Positions 20,391 to 63,565 of a stretch of 64,000 bases of DNA are shown piece by piece. Source of the DNA: Rhodococcus sp. ARC_M5 (lineage in GTDB: Bacteria; Actinomycetota; Actinomycetes; Mycobacteriales; Mycobacteriaceae). The stretch is taken from contig NZ_JALGQE010000004.1 in assembly GCF_022810405.1 (NCBI RefSeq), positions 62,001 to 126,000 on the forward strand. Direction: 5' to 3'. The notes under the pieces were generated by a model. That model did no database searches. It was given only the letters and a program-made list of their open reading frames with translations, and was not told the origin of the DNA. A program made the translations under genes and the position numbers. Within the stretch, counting starts at the first letter, position 1. Each line of letters begins with the position of its first letter.

Positions 20391-20540
20391 GTCTTCAACT
20401 TAGAGGTCCCCGCCTTCATCCCCGACGTCGGCTGATCCGCACCTGACCGGATTCGGCACCAACGCGAACTGACCTCAGCGCCCACAATTCGCCCTCGACA
20501 GCGGAATTCCGTGCGAGGGACCAAATAGTGGACACTCAGG

Positions 20541-21863
20541 TCAGTTGTACGGCTTACGCGCGGTTTCCGGATCGCCGTAGGTGATGGCCCGTTCGCGTCG
20601 GGTTCCGGTGGCGAGGGTTGCGGCCCAGTTGATCAGCGTCCCGACGCGATTGCGGTTGCCGGCCAGGAAGGCGATGTGGATGACGCCCCACGAGACCCAG
20701 CCGAGGAATCCGGACATGCGTAGCGGCCCGGCCTGCACCAGTGCATGTCCGCGCGCAATGTACGCCGCGGTGCCGAGATCCCGGTATTTGAAATCCGAAC
20801 GCGCAGAACCGGACAGGTCCGCTGCGATCGCCGCGCCCGCCGCGCGGCCGCCCTGCATCGCCACTTCGGCTACTCCCGCAAGCTTGTTCAGCGACATGAT
20901 GTCTCCGACGACGAAGACGTTGCGGTGTCCCGGGATCGAGAGATCCGGTTGCACGGCGATACGCCCGGATCGGTCCTGTTCGACGCCCATCGCGTCGGCG
21001 AGCTTCGCAACGAACGGAACGGCTTCGACGCCTGCGGTCCACAGCACGGTGTGGGTGTCGTAGCGAGTGACAGTCTTGGGTTCGGCCTTGGCCGTCACCT
21101 CGACGTCGGTTGCGGTGACGTCGGTGACGTGAACTCCGAGATGGGTTTCCACGCCGACCGCGTCGAGGGTGCGCTGCGCCTTCTTCGTCAGGGAGTCGGG
21201 AAACGATTCGAGTACGCGGTCGCCACCGTGGAAGAGCAGCACTCGCGCTTCCGACGGATGGATCGCGTCGAACTCCTTTGCCAACGCCCTGGTGGCGAGT
21301 TCTCTTATCTGCCCTGCCAATTCGACTCCGGTCGGGCCTCCCCCGGCGACGGCGAACGTGAGCCAGGGTCGGCGTTCGTCGGCGGTGGGCAGGGATTCGG
21401 CCATCTCGAAGGCGGAGATCAGCTTTCGCCTGATCGCGAGGGCATCATCGAGGGTCTTCATCCCCGGTGCCCACTGCACGTATTCGTCGTGGCCGTGATA
21501 GGCCTGCTGCATTCCGACGGCGACGACCAGGTAGTCGTAGGGCAGCTCGAACGTCGAGCCGTCGAATCGGCTCGCCGTCACCACTCCGCCGTCGCCCGCC
21601 GAGCCGTCCGCAGGAGGGGTCACCGAGGTCGCTTCGCCCAGTGCCACATGCACGTTCTTCTGCTTGCGCAGCAGGTGACGCAGCGGACTGGCGATCGAGC
21701 CCTCGGATACCAGACCGGTAGCGCACTGATAGAGCAGCGGCTGAAAGACGTGGGAGGTGCCGCGTTCGAGCACGGTGACGTCGACGTCCTCACCGCGTAG
21801 GCGTCGAGCCGCGTGCAGCCCGCCGAATCCTCCGCCGATGACCAAAACCCGTGGACGTGCCAT
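20541..21863 (-). CDS. ndh: Type II NADH dehydrogenase
   Basis: 440 residues. FAD Rossmann VIGGGFGGLHAARRL starts near residue 7, an NADH Rossmann AVAGGGPTGVELAGQI near residue 165, and GDIMSL and AMQGGRAAGAAIA follow as in Ndh. The C-terminal part holds a hydrophobic membrane-binding segment (FLGWVSWGVIHIAFLAGNRNR). It oxidises NADH and reduces quinone without pumping protons, being the main NADH entry in mycobacterial respiration. It is single copy here with no operon partner. Confidence 0.93.
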   Translation of the reverse strand: MARPRVLVIGGGFGGLHAARRLRGEDVDVTVLERGTSHVFQPLLYQCATGLVSEGSIASPLRHLLRKQKNVHVALGEATSVTPPADGSAGDGGVVTASRFDGSTFELPYDYLVVAVGMQQAYHGHDEYVQWAPGMKTLDDALAIRRKLISAFEMAESLPTADERRPWLTFAVAGGGPTGVELAGQIRELATRALAKEFDAIHPSEARVLLFHGGDRVLESFPDSLTKKAQRTLDAVGVETHLGVHVTDVTATDVEVTAKAEPKTVTRYDTHTVLWTAGVEAVPFVAKLADAMGVEQDRSGRIAVQPDLSIPGHRNVFVVGDIMSLNKLAGVAEVAMQGGRAAGAAIAADLSGSARSDFKYRDLGTAAYIARGHALVQAGPLRMSGFLGWVSWGVIHIAFLAGNRNRVGTLINWAATLATGTRRERAITYGDPETARKPYN

Positions 21864-56806: not shown

Positions 56807-57910
56807 TCACCGTTCGTCGGCGGGGCTGGTCGGCACCGGATCCGAACACTGTGCGACGCGATCTCCGCCCAATCTCTTGGCCCAGTACATCGCCTTGTCC
56901 GCCCGGCCGAGCAGTTCGTCGATGCCGGCCTCGACGCCCCTGGCTTCGACAACCGCATGGGCGACGCCTATCGACGCTGTCAATGGGGACCGATCGGTCG
57001 CGTCGCACAAGCGGATTCGCAGTTGCTCGGATCGTTCGATCACCGAGTCGAGGCCACCGAGGCAGACGACTGCGAATTCCTCGCCGCCGAGCCGAACCGT
57101 GACCGCCGGTGCCGGGAAGACGTCGAGAATGCGGCTCGCAGTCAGTCGTATGGCCGTGTCTCCGTGCTCGTGACCGAACCGATCGTTGACGGCTTTGAAG
57201 TTGTCGATGTCGATCACCACCGCGGTCACCACCGCATCCGTCCCGGGTCGACGGTCGAGGTTGCCGATCGCCGCGTCGAATCCCCGTCGATTCTGCATTC
57301 CGGTGAGCGGGTCGTAGAACGCGCCGGTGGCATCGCGGCGCAACAGCATCAGGAAGGAGTGGCAGATCAGCGGCGCCGAGAACATCACCAGGATCAGCAT
57401 CACGAGATAAAGAGTGGTCCGTAGACGCTGTGCGGGGTCGTCGACCATGGCCGATGCGTAGAGAACCGCAACGGTGACGAAAGCGAACAGGTGATGCGCG
57501 GTGAACAACTCGGGGCCGTGAAATCCCACGACGTAGCTGCCCATCACCGTGAAGAGCGCCGCCATCGGCAGCATCTCGGACGGCTCGTCGACGGTGAGAA
57601 GTACTGCGGCGAGGACGATATCGGCGTACAGCACGAATGCGATCGACATTCGCCAGCTCGGCCAGCCGCCGATCAACCAGGCGACCCCCAGCGGAAGAAT
57701 CGTGACGATGGTCGACCACAGCGCCCATTGCCCCGGGCCGCTGTCTCCGAGGCCCGGGATCGCCAGGGCGATCACAGCAGCAGCCGCGTAGACGAAGCAG
57801 AGGATCCCGATGAGGATCCTGGTGACGTGCAGTGCTTGCTGGGACCGTGCATACGCAACGTTCCACCCGTAGTCGACCGGGAGCGACCACCATTGGCGAA
57901 GACTGTTCAC
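56807..57910 (-). CDS. Membrane diguanylate cyclase (GGDEF)
   Basis: 367 residues. About six membrane helices occupy residues 30-195. The GGDEF domain follows with YDPLTGMQNRRGFD, DIDNFKAVNDRFGHEHGD and an intact active site RLGGEEFAVV. It should make c-di-GMP from GTP. No RXXD inhibitory site is evident before the active loop. A degenerate EAL-DICT protein is encoded nearby. Confidence 0.9.
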   Translation of the reverse strand: MNSLRQWWSLPVDYGWNVAYARSQQALHVTRILIGILCFVYAAAAVIALAIPGLGDSGPGQWALWSTIVTILPLGVAWLIGGWPSWRMSIAFVLYADIVLAAVLLTVDEPSEMLPMAALFTVMGSYVVGFHGPELFTAHHLFAFVTVAVLYASAMVDDPAQRLRTTLYLVMLILVMFSAPLICHSFLMLLRRDATGAFYDPLTGMQNRRGFDAAIGNLDRRPGTDAVVTAVVIDIDNFKAVNDRFGHEHGDTAIRLTASRILDVFPAPAVTVRLGGEEFAVVCLGGLDSVIERSEQLRIRLCDATDRSPLTASIGVAHAVVEARGVEAGIDELLGRADKAMYWAKRLGGDRVAQCSDPVPTSPADER

Positions 57911-58001
57911 AGGTCTCGAGCAGCTTTCCTAGTGTCACGACGTAGATGGACAAGTCAACCACAGACGAAACCACCTGGTCCGCAAAGTGGGAAACTCGCG
58001 A

Positions 58002-58235
58002 CTATCCCCGCATGCCGTCGGCCAACTCGAACACTCGGCCCGCGTAGGTCACCATGAACGCATCGAGCGCTTGCTGTGACAGTTCGGGGCACCCGGCTCT
58101 CCGAAAGAAGTGCTCCAGGTCCACCAGTCGATCCCCCAGTCCGACGCGTTGTCGATCCAGGGCCTCGAGCTCGACGACCAACGCCTTCAGTTCCTCGACC
58201 TTGCGCAGTACGTCGTTCACCGGATCACCGTCCAC
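58002..58235 (-). CDS. Small coiled-coil protein, hypothetical
   Basis: 77 residues from GTG 58235 (GTG 58220 also possible). The first 45 residues are a strong heptad helix (VEELKALVVELEALDRQRVGLGDRL). No signal peptide or known domain. No strong ribosome site. It may be a partner of the c-di-GMP genes or independent. Confidence 0.45.
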   Translation of the reverse strand: MDGDPVNDVLRKVEELKALVVELEALDRQRVGLGDRLVDLEHFFRRAGCPELSQQALDAFMVTYAGRVFELADGMRG

Positions 58236-58401
58236 TTCACTGGGCCCACCACCGTCTATCGATTCGGCGGCGGAGCCGGGCTTCCCTTCCCAACCCCGCC
58301 GAACTCGACCCTACGCCCTATCGAACATTTGTGCGAACATCGATCTAGTTTGTACCATTCATCTTGTGCACGATCCGAGGAAGTGACCTACAGTCTGTGA
58401 C

Positions 58402-58536
58402 ATGCTCCAGAAAAGGGGTCAGAACGGGGTACGCCCGCCGGGTTCGACCGATCCAGTTCAGTTGGCGCTCTTAGCAATCCTCACGATTGCTGTGATCGCT
58501 CTCGTTGTTGTCGCCGTACAGCAGGGCCGCCTCTGA
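58402..58536 (+). CDS. Possible single-helix membrane peptide
   Basis: A 44-codon frame with one hydrophobic helix (LALLAILTIAVIALVVVAV) behind a soluble N terminus. The ribosome site is weak. It lies next to the left copy of the 76-bp repeat. Small membrane peptides of this size are common, but the call is uncertain. Confidence 0.3.
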   Translation: MLQKRGQNGVRPPGSTDPVQLALLAILTIAVIALVVVAVQQGRL

Positions 58537-58540
58537 CCGC

Positions 58541-58616
58541 GCACCCAAACGTTCACCATCGACCGCGATCGGCGACATTCCGCGTTCGTCACACGGTTCC
58601 GAACGCTCAGGTCCGG
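58541..58616 (+). repeat. 76-bp dispersed repeat, copy A
   Basis: Starts GCACCCAAACGTTCACCATC and is about 85% identical to 59555-59630, in the same orientation and without gaps. It overlaps the last 10 bp of the DUF559 gene. Imperfect inverted ends (AACGTTCA and GAACGCTC) suggest a foldable or mobile unit. Confidence 0.7.
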
Positions 58617-59470
58617 GGTAGCGACCGGCCGACTGCATCGATCGAACGTCGACGACGCCTGACCACCTCGATGATCTCGTCCACCACGCGCCGCGTATCG
58701 CCCATTGCCTGGACGGCCGAGTAGCGCAGCACCAACCATCCCTCCAGAACCATCTTGTTCTGCCGTCGACGATCGTTGTCGAAAGCCTGGCCCGAGATGT
58801 GGAACTCCCGGCCGTCGACTTCTACGATCACCCGCGCCCGGAAGTCCACGAAATCGCCGAAGTAGGGCCCCACCTGTGCGTTGATCTCGATGAAGAAATG
58901 TCGAGCGGACATCGCTCGCGCCACGACACGCTCCGCTTCCGATCGTGTCCCGAGGCAGCACAGACGTAATTGTCTCCGTACGGCTTTCATGCCGTTCATG
59001 CCGCGAGATGATTCGCAGACCGTAGCGATTCGACGCCGAAGGGCCGGCCGCGCAATGGCCGTATCGAAGAATCGCTCCAACTCCTCACCCGTCAGAGTCG
59101 CCGCGACGTCCACGAACACCTGAGCCAACGTCACCACTGGAAGCCCTCGGTGCCGGTCCGATTCGGGGAGGCGTCGGCGATGAATCTTCACCCAGTCCGG
59201 TGCCTGGTGCCGTGTCGACGGCGGCACCGTTGCCGTGACGTGCAGTGGCTCCTCCTCCACCAACCCCCACACCCACGCCGCGGTCAGATGGCTGAGGACG
59301 GCGTCGGGCTTCCACAGAGTCACCGCAGTGCACAGGTCCAGATAGTCGGGCTTTCCTGTCGCATAGATCCCGGGCAGCACTCGAATCAACTGACCGGACG
59401 CAGTTCTACGTGTGATGGTGCTGCGACTCGTCCCCCGAGCCATCAGGTCGACCGCGGTGTGTACCCCCAT
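58607..59470 (-). CDS. DUF559 nuclease-like protein with AbiEi-type N terminus
   Basis: 287 residues from ATG 59470 (the frame extends further without a good start). The N-terminal part resembles the winged-helix/AbiEi antitoxin pattern (GTSRSTITRRTASGQLIRVLPGIYA). The C-terminal part is a DUF559 Vsr-like endonuclease domain: VDFRARVIVEVDGREFH and DNDRRRQNKMVLEGWLVLRYSA. Such genes are frequent, variable accessory genes in Rhodococcus and Mycobacterium. Two copies of a 76-bp repeat flank it. Confidence 0.8.
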   Translation of the reverse strand: MGVHTAVDLMARGTSRSTITRRTASGQLIRVLPGIYATGKPDYLDLCTAVTLWKPDAVLSHLTAAWVWGLVEEEPLHVTATVPPSTRHQAPDWVKIHRRRLPESDRHRGLPVVTLAQVFVDVAATLTGEELERFFDTAIARPALRRRIATVCESSRGMNGMKAVRRQLRLCCLGTRSEAERVVARAMSARHFFIEINAQVGPYFGDFVDFRARVIVEVDGREFHISGQAFDNDRRRQNKMVLEGWLVLRYSAVQAMGDTRRVVDEIIEVVRRRRRSIDAVGRSLPRT

Positions 59471-59554
59471 GCGAATACCGTGAACGATCCACGGTGCTTG
59501 CGCCAGTGGCGCTTTCGAAACCTGTGGATGGATCCGAGTTATCCACAGGCTGCC

Positions 59555-59630
59555 GCACCTCAACGTTCACTATCGACCCCGATCGGCGACATTCCGCGTA
59601 CGGTGCACGGTTCTGAACGCTCACGTTCGC
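59555..59630 (+). repeat. 76-bp dispersed repeat, copy B
   Basis: Starts GCACCTCAACGTTCACTATC and matches copy A at 58541-58616 at roughly 65 of 76 positions. It lies just upstream of the DUF559 gene's start and before the terminator at 59654. Confidence 0.7.
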
Positions 59631-59653
59631 GCTTCCGACACGACGCTCGGGCA

Positions 59654-59682
59654 GGTTGCGCCGGTGTTGCACCGGCGCAACC
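59654..59682 (-). terminator. Strong hairpin after the 35-residue peptide gene
   Basis: GGTTGCGCCGGT and ACCGGCGCAACC pair in a perfect 12-bp stem around GTTGC. It lies 8 bp past the stop of the small gene on the minus strand. No T-run follows, so it may be a rho-independent terminator of the actinobacterial kind. Confidence 0.7.
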
Positions 59683-59690
59683 GTTCGACC

Positions 59691-59798
59691 TCAGGATCCG
59701 AGGAGTGCACTCACTGCAGTGCTGCCGCTCTCGGCGCTTCCGCTGCCGATGAGGCCGAGGATGACGTCGATGATGATCTTGGCGATGAATGCGTCCAT
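59691..59798 (-). CDS. 35-residue hydrophobic peptide
   Basis: 35 codons from ATG 59798 with AGGAG 5 nt upstream and a perfect 12-bp hairpin just after the stop, so it looks like a complete transcription unit. Residues 1-18 (MDAFIAKIIIDVILGLIG) form an amphipathic helix; the rest is Ser/Gly-rich with a short hydrophobic end. Signal peptide is absent. Size and character recall the small porin peptides of mycolate bacteria (PorA/PorH), but that is only an analogy. Confidence 0.55.
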   Translation of the reverse strand: MDAFIAKIIIDVILGLIGSGSAESGSTAVSALLGS

Positions 59799-59952
59799 AA
59801 CTACTCCTGTTGTGTAGTACCCCCGACGGGATACAGACGGACCTACGAGCGCCGTGGCCGCATGTGACCGGCCACAACGGATCGGAAGGTAGCAGCTGAA
59901 ACTGTCCGAAGGGTGACGCTGTGGGCGCAACCACAGTTCACACCGCAATTTT

Positions 59953-59987
59953 ACAAATCTGCACATTTGTCCAACAACATGACAAAT
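59953..59987. promoter_or_regulatory. Nested palindromes upstream of alkB
   Basis: ACAAATCTGCACATTTGT (59953-59970) and ATTTGTC...GACAAAT (59965-59987) overlap, giving three alternating ACAAAT/ATTTGT arms. They lie about 50-85 bp before the alkB ATG. A repressor such as AlkU, or another alkane regulator, could bind here. Promoter boxes could not be fixed by eye. Confidence 0.45.
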
Positions 59988-60036
59988 TCGGTGTATTGTC
60001 CATTCCACAGTGATCGGCCTTACACGAGGAGTGACG

Positions 60037-61260
60037 ATGACCGCATCGAATGTCGACGATCAGGCGCAGGCGCCGGTCGACGAATGGCACGACCGCAAGC
60101 GATACCTCTGGTTGATGGGCTTGATCCCACCCACGGCGGTGTTCATGGCCACCGGACTGGTGTGGGCTTTCAACCAGCTCGGCTGGAATGCGGTGTCACC
60201 GGTCTGGTGGTGGATCGGTGCCCTGCTCGTCTACGGATTGCTCCCGATCCTCGACCGGTTCTTCGGTCCCGACGGCGACAACCCTCCCGACGAGGCGATG
60301 AAGGCACTCGAGGAAGACAAGTACTACCGCTACTGCACCTACGCCTACATTCCGTTCCAGCTCGCCAGCCTGGTGTTCGCCTGCTACCTGTGGTCGGCCG
60401 ACAACCTGTCGTGGCTCGGGATCGACGGTGGGCTGGGGCTGATCTCCAAGATCGGACTGGCCATCAGCATCGGCGTGATGGGCGGCGTCGGCATCAACAC
60501 CGCACACGAACTCGGCCACAAGAAGGACAGCCTGGAACGCTGGTTGTCGAAAATCACTCTGGCACAGACGTTCTACGGCCACTTCTACATCGAGCACAAT
60601 CGCGGACACCATGTCCGCGTCGCCACCCCCGAGGATCCGGCGAGCTCGAAGTACGGCGAGAGCTTCTGGGCCTTCTTGCCTCGCAGCGTCTGGGGCAGCC
60701 TCAAGTCGTCGTGGGAGCTCGAGAAGACTCGCATGGAGCGATTGGGCAAGAGCACGTGGAGCATCCAGAACGACGTGCTGAACGCGTGGCTGATGTCCGT
60801 CGTTCTCTACGCGGTGCTTGTCGCGGTGTTCGGTCCGATCATTCTGCCGTTCCTGGTGATTCAGGCAATCTACGGTTTCTCGCTGCTCGAGACGGTCAAC
60901 TACCTCGAGCACTACGGCCTGCAGCGCCAGAAGAAGGAGAACGGCCGCTACGAGCGCTGCACCCCCGAGCACAGCTGGAACTCCGATCACATCGTGACGA
61001 ACATCTTCTTGTATCACCTTCAGCGACACAGTGATCACCACGCCAACCCCACCCGTCGCTACCAGACCCTGCGCAGCATGGACGGGGCGCCGAATCTACC
61101 GAGCGGATACGCGAGCATGATCTCGTTGGCGTACTTCCCACCGGTGTGGCGCAAAGTGATGGACCACCGGGTTCTCGACCACTACGACGGTGACATCACG
61201 AAGGTCAACATTCAGCCGTCCAAGCGGGAGAAGATCCTCGCCCAGCACGGAGCCAAGTGA
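60037..61260 (+). CDS. alkB: Alkane 1-monooxygenase
   Basis: 407 residues from ATG 60037, set by GAGGAG 7-8 nt upstream. Six-helix membrane diiron enzyme with all histidine boxes: HELGHK (157-162), EHNRGHH (186-192), and LQRHSDHH near residue 330, plus the NYLEHYG motif. It hydroxylates the terminal methyl of alkanes using oxygen and electrons from rubredoxin. The stop overlaps the first rubredoxin ATG by one base (TGATG). Typical first gene of rhodococcal alk clusters. Confidence 0.96.
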   Translation: MTASNVDDQAQAPVDEWHDRKRYLWLMGLIPPTAVFMATGLVWAFNQLGWNAVSPVWWWIGALLVYGLLPILDRFFGPDGDNPPDEAMKALEEDKYYRYCTYAYIPFQLASLVFACYLWSADNLSWLGIDGGLGLISKIGLAISIGVMGGVGINTAHELGHKKDSLERWLSKITLAQTFYGHFYIEHNRGHHVRVATPEDPASSKYGESFWAFLPRSVWGSLKSSWELEKTRMERLGKSTWSIQNDVLNAWLMSVVLYAVLVAVFGPIILPFLVIQAIYGFSLLETVNYLEHYGLQRQKKENGRYERCTPEHSWNSDHIVTNIFLYHLQRHSDHHANPTRRYQTLRSMDGAPNLPSGYASMISLAYFPPVWRKVMDHRVLDHYDGDITKVNIQPSKREKILAQHGAK

Positions 61261-62809: not shown

Positions 62810-63430
62810 ATGCCCGCAGCCGAACAGACGTCGACCCCCGGTCGATACCGTGAAGCAGCGTCGACTCTTGCGCGCGATACCGCGCTCGATGCGCTGCGCG
62901 AGTTGTTGCACCAACGCAACTGGCGCAACGTGACGATGAGTCACATCGCCAAGGCTGCGGGTCTGAGCAGGCAGAGCCTGTACAACGAGTTCGGTTCGCG
63001 GCGCGGCGTCGCACAGGGCTACGCCATCAGATTGACGGACGCGTTCGTCGCGATGTGCGAAACAGCGCTGTACCAACACGAGAACGACGCGTCGGCCGCT
63101 CTGCGACAGGGTTTCTCGTCGTTCTTCCAGCTGAGCGCGCTCGACCCCCTCGTGCGATCACTGCACGGCGGCGACGCACCGGAGGATCTTCTGCGCCTGA
63201 TCACCACCGACAGCGAGGTGCTCATCGACCGCGCGGGCGAGCGGCTGTCCGGGACATTCCAGCGCGGGTGGGTGGGCGCAACCCCACGCCAGGCCGACGT
63301 CGTCAGCAAGGCCATCGTTCGATTGGCCCTGAGCTACATCCCCGAGCCGCCCGACGACATCGACGCAGCAGCCGATGATCTGGCGCTGCTGCTCACGCCG
63401 TTCATCGATTCCATCACCGCGGACAGCTGA
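62810..63430 (+). CDS. alkU: TetR regulator of the alk operon
   Basis: 206 residues from ATG 62810, 10 bp after rubB. The helix-turn-helix reads MSHIAKAAGLSRQSLYNEFGSRRGV, a TetR pattern. In rhodococcal alkB1 clusters this gene is called alkU and is thought to regulate the operon. It probably binds the palindromes upstream of alkB. Confidence 0.88.
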   Translation: MPAAEQTSTPGRYREAASTLARDTALDALRELLHQRNWRNVTMSHIAKAAGLSRQSLYNEFGSRRGVAQGYAIRLTDAFVAMCETALYQHENDASAALRQGFSSFFQLSALDPLVRSLHGGDAPEDLLRLITTDSEVLIDRAGERLSGTFQRGWVGATPRQADVVSKAIVRLALSYIPEPPDDIDAAADDLALLLTPFIDSITADS

Positions 63431-63461
63431 CCTCGGCACCCGTCGTTCGCCCTCGCCTCCC

Positions 63462-63547
63462 GTACCCACTGACCTCGCGTACCCCGCTGACCTCCCGTAC
63501 CCACTGACCCCGCGCACCCACTGACCCCGCGCACCCGCTGACCTCGC
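63462..63547. repeat. 17-bp tandem repeat array, five copies
   Basis: Five units of about 17 bp, the first GTACCCACTGACCTCGC; one unit is 18 bp. Copies vary at a few positions. The array lies in the gap between the convergent alkU and SRPBCC genes. Too short and unspaced for CRISPR. Confidence 0.75.
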
Positions 63548-63565
63548 AAACGCGCGCGCGTTTGC
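63546..63565. repeat. 20-bp perfect CG-rich palindrome
   Basis: GCAAACGCGCGCGCGTTTGC is its own reverse complement. A partial copy, CGCGCGCGTTTGC, recurs at 63613-63625. It sits between convergent genes and could act as a terminator stem or alternate DNA structure. Confidence 0.6.

Follow-up and report, generated by a model that had tools for sequence, protein, structure and literature searches.

Dyad elements paired with actinobacterial AbiEi-DUF559 genes: candidate targets of the predicted nucleases whose genes they flank

A DUF559 gene between two copies of a repeat

Why should a gene of the DUF559 family stand between two direct copies of the same 76-bp sequence? The question arises from a 64-kb stretch of DNA, here called the window (G000:C68:62001-126000), whose source genome, G000, comprises 5.4 Mb in 78 contigs and has Rhodococcus and Rhodococcoides as its closest relatives within the named genome collection. 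DUF559 is catalogued as a domain of unknown function, and a gene paired with a nearby candidate DNA target would provide this family with a testable substrate. Self-comparison gave the two copies, D downstream and U upstream of the gene, a start-to-start distance of 1014 bp and 85.5% identity over 76 bp (Table 1); an earlier note on this DNA, which had described direct copies ~85% identical and ~1,014 bp apart at the gene ends, was right, its coordinates to within a base. The flanking-repeat score of the locus is far above chance: in a random control of 300 pairs of window segments the 99th percentile was 31, and the maximum, 97, is the score of this locus.

Table 1. Coordinates of the gene, the repeat copies and their arms in the window
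Feature	Position	Strand	Basis or remark
Downstream element copy D	58540..58615	+	sequence read directly
Left ~22-bp arm (half-site), copy D	58540..58561	+	family consensus CGSACCTGANNGTTCACGATCG
Right ~22-bp arm (half-site), copy D, inverted	58594..58615	-	family consensus
AbiEi-DUF559 (Vsr/EDxHD-like) nuclease gene (predicted), 287 aa	58607..59470	-	likely ATG 59470; start inferred from alignment
Upstream element copy U	59554..59629	+	84 bp before likely start codon
Left ~22-bp arm, copy U	59554..59575	+	family consensus
Right ~22-bp arm, copy U, inverted	59608..59629	-	family consensus
Solitary relative of the repeat beside paralogue G000c	20470..20543	+	profile match in window; arms similar by eye to those beside G000c (TGACCTSAGCG.CCAC)

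The genome-wide search with the 76-bp unit that the earlier note had proposed returned, by BLAST against the source genome (E up to 1), 16 matches: the two flanking copies and 14 short ones (E 0.0115 to 0.97). Only the flanking pair being clear, a high-copy close repeat in this genome is ruled out; profile models add more distant, solitary copies, so that "only two copies" is true of close copies alone. A phage origin was rejected likewise, none of 31 pattern matches in viral contigs being confirmed as a relative, and an Rfam search of positions 57000-61000 (E up to 1) matched no RNA family. Elsewhere in the window, at 63380-63560, the ORF translations are repetitive (GQWVRGVSGY-like units), which suggests a short tandem repeat.

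Both copies lie close against the gene. The likely start codon at 59470 corresponds to a conserved MGV in the protein alignment (longer alternative starts lie at 59509 and 59563) and sets copy U 84 bp upstream, a position that makes it a possible operator. Copy D overlaps the other end: its arm reads CGG ACC TGA and supplies the last two codons (R-T) and the stop, and the LPRT C-terminus is found also in the orthologues of G026, G010, G030, G008 and G023.

The window protein matched the Pfam families DUF559 (PF04480), MTES_1575 and AbiEi_4 (PF13338) at E 0.001, with no IS200/IS605-type tyrosine transposase domain among the matches, and is recognised by the AbiEi models of PADLOC. In its predicted structure (mean pLDDT 86.3) residues 12-185 match the AbiEi antitoxin of S. 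agalactiae (6y8q; Z 10.6, rmsd 4.9, 169 aligned), residues 190-288 the homing endonuclease I-Bth0305I (3r3p; Z 12.5, rmsd 2.3, 95 aligned) and residues 188-287 Vsr (1cw0; Z 9.6, rmsd 2.5, 100 aligned); a profile search of PDB sequences found 3hrl at E 8e-9, AbiEi at E 7e-6 and I-Bth0305I only at E 0.28. Columns invariant in an alignment of 32 sequences (31 of the 80 named-genome loci introduced below, plus the window; L112 and L122 were excluded for internal stops) include S190, E191, E193, R194, D219, E230, D232, H237, D246, R247, Q250 and N251, residues that presumably form the active site. The protein is predicted to be a sequence-specific endonuclease that joins a DNA-binding module of AbiEi type to a domain like that of Vsr/EDxHD homing endonucleases.

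Pairing of genes and repeats at other loci

The earlier note had also suggested looking for the repeat at other DUF559 genes, and had envisaged a repeat family maintained near them. The source genome holds ten matches to the window protein (E 0.001), and self-comparison showed that most of these loci carry their own direct or inverted repeats (L029 has none, L026 mainly tandem and short ones); at seven of the ten the direct repeat scores at least 35. At this threshold a direct flanking repeat is present at 34 of 49 genus loci, the ten own-genome loci included, and at 43 of 80 loci from named genomes, a set drawn partly from the same genomes. None of 315 shifted controls reaches that score, a result which together with the random segment pairs (n=300) rules out a chance origin of the flanking repeat. 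Among distant actinobacterial loci, 18 of 39 have a direct or inverted repeat scoring at least 35, against 0.94% of 1482 mismatched pairings. Loci with no repeat at the threshold thus amount to about half: 37 of the 80 named (direct) and 21 of the 39 distant (direct or inverted). The genus set consists of 44 of 124 matches (five from the source genome, 29 that are mostly the best per genome and 10 chosen by hand) plus five weaker own-genome matches; the named set comprises 80 of 170 confirmed loci; and the distant set is 39 of 40 loci taken roughly by rank from 101 non-own matches, L386 being left out because its flank is too short.

Repeat similarity falls as protein similarity falls, with a Spearman coefficient of 0.56 that none of 999 permutations equalled; the test used the 36 of the 80 named loci that score at least 45, with stops read as X, and many of these loci are orthologues, so shared descent gives part of the correlation. 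Different AbiEi-DUF559 clades carry different repeats at their own ends. The pairing of AbiEi-DUF559 genes with dyad elements of their own is real and general, a wider version of the family that the earlier note had envisaged. Genes of this type are present in 37 of 246 sampled actinobacterial genomes, the source genome included (E 1e-20). A search of the literature, largely confined to papers outside subscription, found no description of repeats flanking DUF559 or AbiEi-DUF559 genes.

Dyad architecture and dispersed copies

Each 76-bp copy is made of inverted arms of ~22 bp around a core of ~32 bp, the arms being two half-sites of one consensus, CGSACCTGANNGTTCACGATCG, in inverted order (57 copies of length 77 entered the arm test). 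In an alignment of 60 copies (the solitary copies introduced below without L269, L276, L283 and L291, whose length is not 77, plus the two window copies) 77.0% of cells pair between the arms, against 77.6% in shuffles, and the arms show no covariation: the score, 0.103, compares with a shuffled mean of 0.102, and 216 of 500 shuffles were as high. Since covariation is absent and each arm follows the consensus independently, the arms look like half-sites for a protein rather than the two sides of a hairpin. The z-scores for RNA folding of both window copies, on both strands, against shuffles were 0.98, -0.77, -2.16 and -0.05, and no terminator-like site was found at these two copies; with the lack of covariation, this leaves a hairpin or terminator reading of the element unsupported.

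Dispersed copies were sought with model R1, which was built from 17 element copies and, having only 3 base pairs, works mainly as a sequence profile. At E 0.01 it matched 35 of the 37 genus genomes, the source genome included, several of them only weakly and once or a few times. Six genomes with the gene gave 21, 22, 18, 21, 17 and 24 matches (both strands, E 0.01), eight genomes without it 17, 17, 17, 14, 17, 6, 5 and 5: element number is tied only loosely to presence of the gene. In the source genome 8 profile sites, the flanking pair included, lie at E below 1e-9. Among the R1 matches listed for 14 genomes we took 62 solitary copies, which occur away from identified DUF559 genes and which their flanks link into 17 groups (some with more than one site per genome) and seven single copies. 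The earlier note had seen many copies unlinked to DUF559 genes as an argument against such an association; solitary copies do exist, so that this argument holds in part.

The position of the solitary copies bears on the reading that they are ordinary transcription terminators or gene-end palindromes with no enzyme involved. A rough coding test placed 54 of the 62 (among the matches listed) outside coding-like ORFs; 47 of these 62 face a predicted 3' end, at a median distance of 10 bp and within 25 bp in 34 cases, and 41 face a predicted 5' end, within 25 bp in 13. Proximity to 3' ends is what this reading expects, but the arms lack covariation, RNA folding of the window copies gave the z-scores stated above, the two window copies have no terminator-like site and the repeats differ between gene clades; we regard it as the least probable of the readings considered here.

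The family around the window gene is not alone in having dispersed members. Solitary copies occur as well in a second family, that around paralogue G000b, where 20 loci fall into groups of 9, 7 and 4, and the solitary element of the window related to the G000c repeat (Table 1) provides with its last three bases the stop codon of a minus-strand ORF, 20541-21863. At five loci whose flanks are shared with G000c (L061, L062, L064, L065 and L083) a strong palindrome, scoring 60-76, lies downstream, with no matching upstream copy.

At one site, G000:C5:111009, presence of a solitary copy is polymorphic. Compared with 19 relatives, it is present in G008 and G023 and the site is empty in thirteen (G015, G022, G021, G010, G003, G024, G014, G026, G030, G036, G006, G025 and G004); the spacing between anchors is 10-22 bp in the empty genomes against 106 bp in G000, 108 in G008 and 98 in G023, from which it follows that the element and ~10-20 bp beside it are present or absent as a unit. 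In G018 the interval is 57 bp with no element in it, and in G034, G031 and G009 it is filled by 189-731 bp of other sequence. The large number of empty sites speaks for insertion. A second check for polymorphism, with the G026 element L252, was set aside, the left flank ending ~100 bp short of that element.

Insertion polymorphism at this site and terminal inverted repeats are likenesses to MITEs, and the element could be one that an unrelated transposase moves, the nuclease gene having been trapped between two copies by chance and then kept. The 22-bp inverted ends and the long matches of uniform length fit this idea; R1 matches run uniformly from 1 to 77, to which the search mode may contribute, and with a sequence-only model, R2, strong matches span nearly all 77 positions and weaker ones are partial. 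Against it, inspection by eye of the one site compared shows no evident target duplication, and each AbiEi-DUF559 clade has different repeats at its own ends. We consider this origin improbable.

The arrangement also recalls the REP/RAYT systems, in which, in the available text of PMC2817692, an enzyme gene lies between two palindromic repeats that are also found alone, the repeats diverge with the enzyme, and RAYT orthologues keep their genomic place. That the window element belongs to such a system, acting on single-stranded hairpins, has these points in its favour, dispersed solitary copies included. The enzymes, however, differ, an AbiEi module with a Vsr/EDxHD nuclease by Pfam and fold matches here and an IS200/IS605-type transposase in RAYT; the repeats are direct at the window locus and inverted REPs at RAYT genes, on the same available text; the arms of our 60 copies do not covary; and there are a handful of element copies, where REPs usually exceed 100 per genome. 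With the enzyme, hairpin and copy-number features missing, the window system resembles the REP/RAYT layout without being a member, and we judge the single-strand reading very unlikely.

The strong sites are unevenly spread in some long contigs. If the 5.7-Mb contig G023:C1 is circular, each of the eight strong sites of G023 (the flanking pair counted as one) lies no more than ~1.1 Mb away from dnaA. G014, G027 and G009 show a weaker dnaA-ward bias, and this evidence is not independent, since strong sites are common to several species.

The locus in relatives and a proposed role for the nuclease

The gene and both copies are present at the window locus in six genomes (G000, G008, G010, G023, G026 and G030). 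Four others, G014, G021, G024 and G015, lack the gene and keep a single copy, and G003 has a decayed stretch; no copy was recognised at the locus in G022, and the alignments of G013 and G033 end ~200 bp before the site. These states are scattered on a tree of the alkB region. The earlier note had named a layout fixed in all relatives as counting against its proposal; the layout is not fixed. The one-copy relatives fit two histories: the gene was lost when its flanking copies recombined, or it had not yet been inserted. All 63 genus gene pairs with at least 75% DNA identity share their locus: recent hopping of the gene between loci is thus not seen in the genus, and the gene seems to be inherited in place and lost at times. 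The proposal that the gene had been inserted by or with a repeat element does not follow from these observations.

Within a genome the two copies are more alike than orthologous copies are on average. In the six genomes, which stand for six species, U-D identity within a genome exceeds that of orthologous copies overall (0.83 vs 0.72), in the core (0.85 vs 0.66) and in the arms (0.81 vs 0.76), and no other of the 720 possible U-D pairings scored as high. In trees of this group (clade A), U and D pair by genome in four of six cases (G026, G000, G030 and G008; not G010 and G023). In clade B only some U-D pairs group by genome, G017 and G009 group by side, and mean identity is 0.915 within genomes and 0.83 between them. 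This pattern suggests that the flanking copies undergo conversion, above all in their core; alternatively, they were re-duplicated recently.

What the element does for the protein, or the protein for the element, can be read in two main ways. The main rival to a nuclease and its target is regulation only: the AbiEi module would repress its own gene from U, the other copies would form a small regulon or chromosome-organising sites, and the nuclease fold would act elsewhere, for example in defence. The distance of U from the likely start suits an operator, PADLOC AbiEi models match the protein, and, on the text available in PMC7319586, AbiEi and Rv2827c autoregulate via 23-bp inverted repeats. 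At solitary sites, moreover, arms are better conserved than the core (0.745 and 0.525 identity between copies of different genomes), and conserved arms at old solitary sites could reflect a host function instead of a nuclease target. But copy D overlaps a stop codon, solitary copies (among the matches listed) more often adjoin 3' than 5' ends, core homogenisation is unexpected on this account and the candidate nuclease residues are invariant. Regulation as the sole role seems to us unlikely, though worth keeping in view.

The best reading, and one that we hold to be just on the probable side, is that a dimer of the protein sits on the arms and cleaves the core; conversion and loss of the gene would follow from the cut, and perhaps spread of the element. 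The flanking elements would then be the likely recognition sites of the endonuclease encoded between them. AbiEi binds two 23-bp inverted repeats 3 bp apart (available text of PMC7319586) and I-Bth0305I forms a dimer on a target nearly 60 bp long (available text of PMC3943268); by analogy, one monomer would sit on each 22-bp arm, and the dimer would set its two nuclease domains over the core. The ~32 bp between the arms here, against the 3 bp of that AbiEi site, count against this model. So do the roughly one in two loci with no repeat at the threshold, the U and D copies that fail to group by genome in the trees, the constant place of the gene within the genus and the loose tie between element number and gene presence. 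A cut in the core would be repaired from the other copy, which would keep the flanking pair alike; recombination between the copies would at times delete the gene and leave a single copy, as fits the gene-less relatives; and cutting may help the elements, one site of which is polymorphic, to spread. Copy U may serve autoregulation as well. Pairing, dispersal, a dyad without covariation, homogenisation, one polymorphic site and the predicted fold are the supported parts of this scheme; binding, cleavage and their consequences we infer.

Comparison with characterised systems sets this reading in context. EDxHD homing endonucleases provide the best structural match of the nuclease domain in I-Bth0305I, itself described, in the available text, as a dimer with a long target; but here repeats flank the gene, where a homing endonuclease has one target split by its gene, and no intron or intein was noticed. 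Within the genus, movement of the gene between loci is not seen; its presence is scattered, with one-copy relatives, and each clade has the same locus. AbiE type IV toxin-antitoxin systems share the N-terminal fold, the AbiEi profiles and, as far as the available text goes, inverted repeats of similar length. They differ from the window protein in that its nuclease domain is fused, and among the four ORFs neighbouring its gene, a Pfam scan of which gave GGDEF, FA_desaturase and two without match, no toxin family was found, AbiEii nucleotidyltransferase included. Caulobacter VsrA has a DUF559, Vsr-like domain and is functionally linked to a cytosine methyltransferase, and palindromes go unmentioned in the available text of PMC12907096.

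The Ssn GIY-YIG nucleases of Neisseria, whose genes have cognate repeats nearby and elsewhere, belong to another nuclease superfamily than the window protein. The combination described here suggests an enzyme paired with DNA that it recognises, of a kind undescribed before, and with this pairing the systems in which an enzyme goes together with dispersed palindromic elements would gain an unrelated enzyme class. It also suggests a route by which the DNA reader of a toxin-antitoxin system becomes the targeting part of a nuclease. More broadly, and tentatively, for we think it possible rather than probable, AbiEi-DUF559 proteins may be widespread selfish homing-like nucleases of actinobacteria, which combine the DNA reader of an antitoxin with an EDxHD nuclease. 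A dispersed dyad element of two ~22-bp half-sites and a cut core would belong to each clade, and cutting followed by repair would keep the gene-flanking copies alike, an equivalent of the REP/RAYT layout on double-stranded DNA.

Two loci stand out for inverted flanking repeats. The distant AbiEi-DUF559 gene L356 (G037) has such repeats with a score of 300 (2 per match, ~150 bp), like the terminal inverted repeats of transposons. L131, in Kitasatospora arboriphila, of another order, encodes a relative at 54% identity between inverted repeats scoring 157, which suggests transfer.
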